A stretch of 64,000 bases of DNA from Microbacterium sp. BK668 (GTDB lineage Bacteria > Actinomycetota > Actinomycetes > Actinomycetales > Microbacteriaceae). The notes beneath the pieces are model-generated. The model had not been told where the DNA came from and made no database searches. It saw only the letters and a list, made by a program, of their open reading frames with translations. Positions 14,130-16,673 of the stretch are shown in pieces; within the stretch, counting starts at the first letter, position 1, and each line of letters opens with the position of its first letter. Where the stretch lies: positions 372,001-436,000 of the forward strand of contig NZ_SNWG01000001.1 in assembly GCF_004362195.1 (NCBI RefSeq), given 5' to 3'. Made by a program: the position numbers and the translations under genes.

Positions 14130-14639
14130 GTGAGCTCGGTGGCAGCATCCCCCCACCTCTCCCTCGAGCCCTGGCGGGCCGAGGACCTCGCTGTGCTCGC
14201 ACGGGCGAACACCGCTGAGATGACGCGGTTCCTCGGCGGGATCGAATCGCACGACGAACTCGCGGCACGGCATGAGCAGTACCTCGCGTTCGCCGACTCC
14301 GGCGAGGGAGCGATGTTCCGCATCGAGATCGACGGGATCCCCGCGGGCTACGCGGGCTGGTGGCTCGAACAGCACGATGGGGCGCCCGCCTATGAGATCG
14401 GCTGCGCCGTCGAGCCGGCGTGGCAGGGACGCGGCGTCGCGACCGAGGCGCTCACCCGCGTGGTGATGGCCGCCGCGGCTCGCAGAGACCACCCGGTGGT
14501 GGGGTATGCGGGGGCGGGGAACGCGGCATCCAACGCCCTCTGCCGCCGGATCGGGTTCGAACTGCGCGGCACCGGTGTCTTCCCGGCCCCCGAGGGGGAC
14601 ATGCCCGTCAACATCTGGATCTTCGAGGCGATGCGATGA
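14130..14639 (+). CDS. GNAT family N-acetyltransferase
   Basis: 169 aa. The acetyl-CoA-binding motif Q/RxxGxG/A appears as QGRGVA after EPAW, and the late segment AGNAASNALCRRIGFELRG is the usual substrate-side helix and strand. The protein is clearly paralogous to the N-terminal half of the next gene (shared MTR[FY]LG, DEL.ARHE, MFRIE.DG.PAG and ENAASNALCRR-like blocks). The pair therefore arose by tandem duplication. The acceptor substrate is unknown. First gene of an apparent three-gene operon, ending in an ATGA overlap. Confidence 0.88.
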   Translation: MSSVAASPHLSLEPWRAEDLAVLARANTAEMTRFLGGIESHDELAARHEQYLAFADSGEGAMFRIEIDGIPAGYAGWWLEQHDGAPAYEIGCAVEPAWQGRGVATEALTRVVMAAAARRDHPVVGYAGAGNAASNALCRRIGFELRGTGVFPAPEGDMPVNIWIFEAMR

Positions 14640-15913
14640 GCGTCACGATCGCGCCCTGGGGGCCGGATGACCTGCCCCTGCTCGAGCGGCTCAACACCCC
14701 GGAGATGACCCGGTACCTCGGTCGCCCCGAGAACAGCGACGAACTTCTCGCCCGGCATGAGCGCTACCTCCTGTCGTGGGAGGCCGGGCACGCGCGCATG
14801 TTCCGGATCGAGGTCGACGGCGAGCCCGCCGGCGGCATCGGATGGTGGACGGTCGAGCACGACGGCATGCCCGCCTACGAGACCGGATGGAGCGTCGTCC
14901 CCGAGTTCCAGGGTCGCGGCGTCGCCGGAGCGGCGCTGAGGCTGGTGATCGGCGGAGTGCGGGAGGCCGGCGATCGGCACCTGCTCGTGGCGTACCCCGG
15001 CGTCGAGAACGCCGCGTCGAACGCGCTGTGCCGCCGGGCGGGCTTCGAGCACCGCGGATCCGCGAGCCGGCCCTGGCGTGACGGCGAGCTGACCTTCAAC
15101 GTCTGGGTGCTCGACATGTCGCCGCTCGACCTCACCGGCCGGACGCCCGACATCGAGGAGCGCTTCGACGAGGGCGTCCTCGACGAGACGCTGTGGTGGC
15201 CCTTCTACACCCCGCACTGGTCCTCCCGCGAGCGGGCGGCGGCGCGCTACACGGTGGGAGCACCGGGCCTGGAGCTGCGGATCGAGGCGGAGACGCCGCC
15301 CTGGGCTCCGGACCTCGACGGCGAGCTGCGCGTGTCGCATCTGCAGACCGGCCAGTCGTCGGGTCCGCTCGGCTCCGGGATCGGGCAGCACCGGTTCCGA
15401 CCCGGTCTCGTCGTTCGCGAGGCGCAGCCGGAGCGCAGGCTCTGGCTCGCCCGGTTCGGCGTCGTCGAGGCGCGGCTCGCCGCCATCCATCACCCGGACG
15501 CGATGGTCGCGCTCTGGCCGATCGGCTTCGAGGACGCCCCGGACGACTGCGGCGAGATCTGCATCGCCGAGATCTTCGGGGCCGAGATCGACGACACGGG
15601 AGGATGGGTCGGAGTCGGCGTCAAGCCGCAGAACGACCCGCGCCTGAGCGAGGACTTCGAGAAGATCCGCGTCGACGGCGACCTCACGCAGTTCCACGAG
15701 TACGCCGTCGAGTGGACGCCGGAGCGCCTGCGCTTCTTCATCGACCACCGATGGGTCAAGACGGTCGCGCAGACCATCGACTACCCCGTGCAGCTCATGC
15801 TCGACGTGTACGAGTTCCCGCCCGCGGAGGGGGAACGGGATGCCGCGGCGCTGCCGCACCGGTTCCGCGTGGCGTGGGTGCGCACGTACCCGCCGGCGAC
15901 GTCCGGTCGCTGA
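14636..15913 (+). CDS. Fusion of GNAT acetyltransferase and GH16-like beta-glucanase domain
   Basis: 425 aa. Residues 1-158 are a GNAT domain (QGRGVAG near 92, ENAASNALCRRAGFEHRG 124-141). From about 163 a second domain follows with the concanavalin-like layout of glycoside hydrolase family 16: DETLWWPFYTPHWSS, then VALWPIGFED, then GEICIAEIFGAEID, and FHEYAVEWTPERLRFFID. The GH16 catalytic motif ExDxxE appears as Glu307-I-Cys309-I-A-Glu312, so the central Asp is Cys. Both Glu are kept. There is no signal peptide, so it is cytosolic as written. The internal ATG at 15116 lies at the domain border but has no ribosome site. Starts in an ATGA overlap. Confidence 0.82.
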   Translation: MSVTIAPWGPDDLPLLERLNTPEMTRYLGRPENSDELLARHERYLLSWEAGHARMFRIEVDGEPAGGIGWWTVEHDGMPAYETGWSVVPEFQGRGVAGAALRLVIGGVREAGDRHLLVAYPGVENAASNALCRRAGFEHRGSASRPWRDGELTFNVWVLDMSPLDLTGRTPDIEERFDEGVLDETLWWPFYTPHWSSRERAAARYTVGAPGLELRIEAETPPWAPDLDGELRVSHLQTGQSSGPLGSGIGQHRFRPGLVVREAQPERRLWLARFGVVEARLAAIHHPDAMVALWPIGFEDAPDDCGEICIAEIFGAEIDDTGGWVGVGVKPQNDPRLSEDFEKIRVDGDLTQFHEYAVEWTPERLRFFIDHRWVKTVAQTIDYPVQLMLDVYEFPPAEGERDAAALPHRFRVAWVRTYPPATSGR

Positions 15914-15914
15914 G

Positions 15915-16673
15915 ATGTCGACGGGTCGGACTCCGCGTCGGCGGCCCCGGGCCGCTGAGCTGCCGCTCGTGCTCGCGGCGGCGGCGTACGGCGTCGAGGC
16001 GGTCGTGCTCGCGATCGTGCTGACGACGAGCGGTGCCCGCGCGCAGGCTCCGGTCGTCGCCACCTTCCGTGCCGGGCAGGATGCCGTGACCGCCGTGATC
16101 GCGACGGTCGATCTGGGCTACGCCCTCGTGGCACTGCTCGCCGGCGGCGCCGTGGCCCACGCGCTGGCCGCGGCATCCGCTCGCTCGGAAGCGCGAGCCG
16201 CGGCGGCCCAGGCATCCCGCACCTCTCCGGCCACGCGTGGCACGGATGCGCTGCTCGTGGCCGGCTGGTCGCAGGGGGCGGCGATCCTGACGTTCCTCGT
16301 CGCGCAGGCGAACGGCATCGCCGAGCTGACGTCGCTCGTCCCGATCTATGCGGCCACGGGCGTGGCGGTGGTGCTCGTGGGGATCGATCCGGGCACTGCT
16401 CCCACCTGGCGTCGGCCCGGCGCGTGGGGCGCCGTGGTGGGGATCGTGCCGTGGGGCGTCATCGGGTTCTCGCAGATCGGAGCGGGGGTCGCCGCCGGCG
16501 ATGTCGGCATCGGCGTGCGGGCGGTCACGCTGGCGGCGCTCGCGATCGTCGCGGTGGGCTGGGTGTGCGCGTGGCGCCGGACGCCGGCAACCTCCGCGCG
16601 GGCGCTCGGCACGATGACGGTCGGGCTCTCGGTCGTCGCGTGGCTCGCGGTCGCGATGCTCGTGCTCGCCTGA
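15915..16673 (+). CDS. Heliorhodopsin-like seven-helix membrane protein without retinal lysine
   Basis: 252 aa with about seven hydrophobic helices (about 16-38, 57-87, 110-133, 138-160, 172-198, 200-222, 232-252). Two blocks match heliorhodopsin 48C12 as I remember it: LVAQANGIAELTSLVPIYA against LIAQICGIADIVALLAIFG, and VVGIVPW against IAGIVPW. His82 matches the conserved His of helix 2. At the retinal lysine in helix 7, 48C12 has LSLVAK and this protein has LSVVAW (Trp243). The whole sequence contains no lysine. The counterion Glu position reads Gly117. It cannot bind retinal by a Schiff base. The start is 1 nt after the GNAT-GH16 stop, so same transcript. Confidence 0.72.
   Translation: MSTGRTPRRRPRAAELPLVLAAAAYGVEAVVLAIVLTTSGARAQAPVVATFRAGQDAVTAVIATVDLGYALVALLAGGAVAHALAAASARSEARAAAAQASRTSPATRGTDALLVAGWSQGAAILTFLVAQANGIAELTSLVPIYAATGVAVVLVGIDPGTAPTWRRPGAWGAVVGIVPWGVIGFSQIGAGVAAGDVGIGVRAVTLAALAIVAVGWVCAWRRTPATSARALGTMTVGLSVVAWLAVAMLVLA

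Follow-up and report, generated by a model that had tools for sequence, protein, structure and literature searches.

The gene considered here (Table 1) lies in a window of 64,000 nucleotides from Microbacterium sp. BK668, that is, the whole stretch of DNA that was analyzed, and its ATG falls one base past the stop codon of an upstream acetyltransferase/GH16-like frame. The encoded protein has no lysine among its 252 residues, just as the first-pass annotation had claimed; with the 1.9% lysine pooled from five neighboring proteins, 4.7 lysines are expected and the chance of zero is about 0.009. A public annotation of this protein (P0002) starts at residue 19. Third-codon-position GC is 0.90, matching the neighboring genes, and is 0.64 in a long antisense frame. 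Two consecutive acetyltransferase frames occupy window positions 14130-15913 (+), the second of which runs in frame into a GH16-like domain, so that a single 424-aa frame carries both PF13302 and PF00722.

Table 1. Coordinates in the window of the gene, its predicted structural elements, and the codons at key heliorhodopsin (HeR) positions
Feature	Positions	Strand	Basis
Lysine-less heliorhodopsin-related protein, 252 aa + stop	15915..16673	+	Open reading frame with ATG at 15915
Beta hairpin of the A-B loop, between helices 1 and 2 (residues 44-66)	16044..16112	+	Predicted model
His82, equivalent to HeR His80	16158..16160	+	Alignment columns
Gly117, equivalent to HeR counterion Glu107	16263..16265	+	Alignment columns
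Predicted helix 7 (residues 228-251)	16596..16667	+	Predicted model
Leu238, equivalent to HeR retinal Lys241	16626..16628	+	hhalign, MAFFT, structural alignment ends
Trp243, equivalent to HeR Trp246	16641..16643	+	hhalign, MAFFT, structural alignment ends

Taken as a single sequence, the protein gives borderline evidence of HeR homology, because it scores below the curated cut-offs of both PF18761 (E = 4e-5; 23.5 bits against 26.7) and the NCBIfam HeR model NF038020 (24 bits against 100), and its top PDB match, 48C12, has E = 0.066. The Pfam search proposed at first pass thus returned a heliorhodopsin match, short of the family's own cut-off, and the suspected similarity becomes decisive once relatives are added. 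A profile of 34 lysine-less rows has six PDB matches at E up to 10, all of them heliorhodopsins (best E = 4.2e-36; 48C12, E = 4.6e-36), with an alignment that spans helix 7. Compared by hhalign with 12 canonical HeRs, the same profile scores 99.9% (E = 3.5e-36), and a 15-row close set against canonical HeRs scores 98.6% (E = 5.2e-16). The hhalign (3.5e-36) and 48C12 values rule out chance resemblance, and homology to solved heliorhodopsins is full length at the profile level. Identity to 21 canonical rows is 16-25%. At E <= 0.01, 32 of the 34 profile members match PF18761 and all 34 match NF038020; one additionally matches another family, weakly. For the protein itself no other family appears in Pfam and NCBIfam scans at E <= 0.01, and the type-1 rhodopsin family PF01036 gives no row at E up to 10 and no match in its genome at E up to 1. 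A first protein search found 14 proteins besides its own and a search with the 34-row profile found 44 (best 7998 candidates scored in each), and a genome search found 25 loci, mostly from Microbacteriaceae, including three canonical HeRs from Saccharibacteria and Patescibacteria; a 62-row alignment (A4) was built from a subset of the collected proteins. At 24 bits against NCBI's 100-bit naming cut-off such a gene is easily missed, and several lysine-less members are annotated as 'hypothetical protein'.

The predicted model has seven helices and a beta hairpin in the A-B loop, a feature described as unique to HeRs, which form dimers (PMC9385722). In the structural comparison proposed at first pass, the model aligns on 48C12, with model residue 252 on 48C12 residue 255. 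Positively charged loop residues number ten inside and two outside, a charge count with the pattern of an N-inside protein, and the N-terminus is thus probably inside the cell. Alignment columns place His82 at the conserved helix-2 histidine and Gly117 at the counterion glutamate, both as first assigned. The first-pass annotation had also put Trp243 at the retinal lysine position, which is five residues off; this is ruled out by two hhalign profile alignments and by the residue ranges of the structural alignment (252 on 255), all of which place Leu238 there. Apolar residues replace Lys241, Glu107, Arg104, Ser237, and Ser76 of HeRs. These data support the conclusion that the protein cannot form a retinal Schiff base. 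The earlier claim that retinal chemistry is excluded therefore stands for the covalent linkage and does not extend to retinal or a carotenoid bound non-covalently. A sequencing error at the lysine codon is ruled out by relatives in many genera that likewise have no lysine there. Of the internal relay of HeRs, the protein retains the Glu28-Ser239-Trp243 end, and the relay is not intact because His23 is replaced by Tyr and Gln26 by Glu.

We found that this protein belongs to a family of lysine-less relatives. A profile search of 398 Microbacteriaceae genomes gave matches in 84 (best six candidates scored per genome), and among 96 distinct Microbacteriaceae sequences 63 have Lys at position 241, 32 have another residue, and one ends before it. 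Recording the helix-7 residue across homologs, as the first-pass annotation had proposed, thus reveals lysine-less members in 32 of the 95 sequences that cover the position. These come from 32 genomes, including that of BK668, and ten of the 32 also carry a canonical HeR. His23, Ser76, His80, Arg104, Glu107, and Ser237 are conserved in each of the 63 sequences that have the lysine, which is missing from all 86 aligned noncanonical rows. The BK668 genome has no second PF18761 match, and the gene was found in none of 34 same-genus genomes. Beyond the family, a phylum-wide sample of 396 genomes has matches in 108, BK668 included (best six candidates per genome); 106 other loci comprise 102 with the lysine, three (L198, L199, and L200) that fall short of the position, and one (L201) with no matching frame, in a count that leaves out three fragmentary places (G586, G787, and G565). 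An order-wide sample of 297 genomes gave 22 matches besides this gene (best nine candidates per genome), all with the lysine, one of which (G197) is itself from Microbacteriaceae. Because every position-covering match elsewhere has the lysine, the lysine-less family is seen only in Microbacteriaceae among the genomes sampled; with six or nine candidates scored per genome, second copies may be missed. Incomplete HeR matches outside Microbacteriaceae occur at L198 (G584), L199 (G675), and L173 (G820), with one internal stop each in those of G675 and G820.

Two trees bear on the origin of the family. In both, a single branch parts lysine from no-lysine rows, with support of 100/95 in a 91-row tree and 100/94 in a 104-row tree, values to be read with caution for the long branches and uneven residue composition of both trees and the unsettled bootstrap of the smaller one. 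The columns for Lys241, His80, and Glu107 were excluded from both trees, and that for Arg104 from the 91-row tree as well. The underlying 107-row set omits fragments under 200 aa, L022, L027, L028, P0051, and 14 near-identical canonical loci; the 91-row tree omits 16 further near-copies, and the 104-row tree uses 60 of 90 thinned rows, from 122. The 104-row tree also splits non-Microbacteriaceae HeRs from the Microbacteriaceae canonical and lysine-less rows (94/86). The topology fits a HeR duplication in or near Microbacteriaceae followed by one loss of the lysine, since a single change suffices in both trees, and repeated losses may have been artificially grouped together. A diverged HeR of Cryobacterium algoritolerans (L020, 7779-8600) still carries the lysine together with Glu107 and His80; it falls between the canonical and lysine-less groups in the trees, adjoining the canonical, and is possibly a pre-loss form. 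Arginine occupies the lysine position in two other genes: one in G123 (L072, 2630-3349), which retains His80 and Glu107, lies on a long branch on the canonical side, and shares its genome with a canonical HeR, and one in Cryobacterium breve (L022, 7276-8450), a HeR-type gene spread over two frames that looks broken.

The lysine-less proteins differ in the residues that replace the light-reaction core. From a residue table we defined, post hoc, three classes among the 86 lysine-less rows (near-copies included), with eight rows outside all three. Class I (37 rows) has Arg80 together with Glu or Asp at 107, with Arg104 in 32, Glu or Asp at 230 in 31, and His23 changed to Leu in 19. Class II, which includes the BK668 protein, has 12 rows, all with Gly107, Trp108, Gly111, Met237, and Trp246, with Val or Leu at 241 and Tyr23 in 11; the counterion, Ser76, Ser237, and Met115 are all replaced, and the relay end is kept as Gln or Glu at 26 in all 12 and Ser242 in 11. 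Class III (29 rows), whose named members place it in the Microcella lineage, has His104, Val108, Thr115, Asp149, and Ala241 throughout. An acid is present at 107 in all 37 Arg80 rows, and Arg80 in none of the 46 acid-free rows among the 86. A separate cross-tabulation omitted 11 gapped rows of 95. On the tree, five independent supported pairs are available, of which two or three agree, none is opposite, and two or three show no difference (p = 0.25-0.5), and the Arg80/Glu107 coupling is suggestive only. Simulations of 48C12 report that the proton passes from the Schiff base to Glu107 and then His80, with a His80-Glu107 salt bridge, and that the relay reaches His23, Gln26, and Trp246 (PMC9726877). 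By analogy, Arg80 with Glu107 in class I would permanently copy the protonated-His80/Glu107 state of light-activated HeR. A tentative and on balance doubtful scenario is that Microbacteriaceae duplicated a HeR and lost its lysine once, and that the resulting family of receptors works without light and has at least three rebuilt cores; class I would be natural, permanently switched-on HeRs and class II a neutral form driven by a ligand or partner.

Gene neighbors offer few clues as to function. By-eye inspection of 43 loci revealed no conserved partner gene recurring across genera, a weak negative from noisy data, as two rounds of automatic gene calling failed to recover even the HeR gene in nine and 11 of these GC-rich loci. 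The only shared chromosomal context that recurs around lysine-less genes, again by eye, is in the Microcella lineage. At five loci (L017, L069, L074, L079, and L081) a glycosyltransferase-like gene lies upstream and the same 274-286-aa gene downstream, on one strand. In Frigoribacterium (L012, L018, and L019), ABC ATPase-like and permease-like frames lie approximately 0.9-2.1 kb upstream on the same strand (by eye), recalling the pairing of a HeR with an ABC transporter (PMC11109279).

What, then, does the protein do? The branch of lysine-less heliorhodopsins is real and conserved, and it is most likely light-independent; the protein probably works without light because the lysine that holds retinal is missing. 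The first-pass suggestion of a light-independent role or a different ligand on a retained fold is thus supported as likely, the covalent retinal site being gone and the HeR fold predicted. We put at about an even chance the reading that this member of a HeR-derived Microbacteriaceae family without the retinal lysine is a light-independent membrane receptor or regulator. Homology, predicted fold, the missing lysine, the family, and constraint in related pairs are all computed here; the membrane topology and the signaling role are what we infer from them. In the proposed mechanism, a seven-helix, N-inside protein would retain the HeR fold, the A-B hairpin, and the relay end (Glu28, Ser239, and Trp243), with the light-reaction core exchanged for apolar residues; a partner protein or small hydrophobic ligand would substitute for the photon, and the resulting change would travel along the relay between helices A and G. 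Such a scaffold, with its relay end and the hairpin through which dimers form, could exert its effect simply by binding. The BK668 genome, in which no BCD, RPE65, type-1 rhodopsin, or second HeR was matched, also speaks for this reading. Canonical HeRs work through partner proteins: one is reported to raise glutamine synthetase activity in vitro, with kcat/Km increasing 1.52-fold in the dark and 2.24-fold in the light (PMC9529153), another controls an ABC transporter (PMC11109279), and reorientation of Trp246 has been proposed as the HeR output (PMC9385722). Against a light-independent receptor, the growth effect of HeR is reported as absent in cells without added retinal (PMC9529153); the absence of a recurring partner gene from the noisy neighborhood data, a weaker constraint than in canonical HeRs, the presence of BCD in 20 of 32 hosts (both below), and the altered relay also count against it.

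An unlikely but serious alternative is a different, non-signaling job, with the old retinal cavity used by a carrier, a channel, or a lipid or carotenoid chaperone. The loss of core polar residues and the fixation of new ones in helices 3-6 (N133, G181, Q187, T205, L209, and W220) would suit such a role, as would a structural match to 8cnk, a type-1 opsin that holds decanoate and no retinal. However, that match (E = 0.039) shares fold, not function; the case is one of fold comparison, with no transport or binding motif found and no other Pfam or NCBIfam family at E <= 0.01.

Selective constraint addresses the rather improbable explanation that the gene is a relaxed, drifting HeR leftover with little or no function. 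Nine lysine-less pairs have dN/dS values of 0.17-0.40, two to six times those of three canonical pairs (0.06-0.12), a rough comparison in that canonical dS is up to 1.8 and the pairs were hand-picked among close relatives, all from outside class II; the nearest DNA relative of the BK668 gene has 116 of 229 residues identical. The lysine-less genes are thus under selection, but less tightly than the canonical ones. This relaxation, together with the patchy presence of the gene (0 of 34 same-genus genomes) and the broken relatives L022 and L007, is as expected of drift. Nonetheless, dN/dS is well under 1 in all nine lysine-less pairs, the reading frame is intact, and its codon-position GC is ordinary. 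Decay alone is insufficient as an explanation because 11 positions are fixed in at least 80% on a residue other than the commonest in 21 canonical rows. Four of the 11 (N133, G181, T205, and L209) are invariant in every lysine-less row that is not gapped at the position, N133 being frequent in canonical rows too.

Retinal supply bears on the very doubtful proposition that the protein still senses light through retinal or a carotenoid held non-covalently. In its favor, BCD is present in 20 of 32 lysine-less hosts versus seven of 48 canonical-only hosts searched, which rules out a restriction of lysine-less genes to hosts unable to make retinal, and class II keeps the helix-5 Pro-Trp and Trp246. 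However, BCD hosts may use the enzyme for other rhodopsins, the BK668 genome has no BCD, RPE65, or type-1 rhodopsin match, and in class II the counterion, Ser76, Ser237, and Met115 are replaced as noted. With BCD mixed across hosts, retinal supply neither separates the groups nor by itself argues for retinal independence. It is most improbable that the protein is a helper subunit for a canonical heliorhodopsin, as HeR dimerization (PMC9385722), the role proposed for Rh-noK (PMC10308929), and co-occurrence in ten of 32 hosts might suggest, since 22 of 32 hosts, BK668 included, gave no canonical HeR match (best six candidates per genome).

Compared with the type 3 rhodopsins 48C12 and TaHeR, the protein keeps the A-B hairpin fold, the N-inside charge pattern, the helix-5 Pro-Trp, His80, and Trp246, but it has no Lys241, Glu107, or Arg104, has no lysine at all, and falls under both curated cut-offs. 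The closest parallels are among type-1 proteins. Haloarchaeal opsin-related proteins (ORPs) are likewise paralogs with an opsin fold in which a different residue (Arg in group A, and Leu or some other hydrophobic one in group B) takes the place of the retinal lysine, and are proposed non-light sensors, but they are archaeal and often lie beside chemotaxis transducers (PMC4915679), whereas the family here is type 3, from Microbacteriaceae, and without a recognized partner. Rh-noK and freshwater FArhodopsins are also natural rhodopsin relatives without the lysine, but are relatives of type-1 proton pumps, Rh-noK being in tandem with a pump gene (PMC10308929). We found no description of a lysine-less heliorhodopsin in the available portions of the open-licence literature, and one may be published elsewhere; the accessible text of PMC8612252, PMC12422013, PMC7807009, PMC9448325, PMC8591293, and PMC12227055 has no mention of it. 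The family is easy to overlook because of its low NCBI scores, 'hypothetical protein' labels, and the filter of a large survey that retained helix-7-lysine sequences only (PMC9601134).

A chromophore-free family built on the HeR scaffold separates the scaffold's job from that of light. Some genomes pair a lysine-less and a normal HeR side by side, and the different cores lend themselves readily to testing; should Arg80 proteins in the dark act like light-activated HeR, this would directly support the proposed His80 relay. The family would also bring to type 3 a concept already put forward for type 1, that of opsins serving as receptors for signals other than light.
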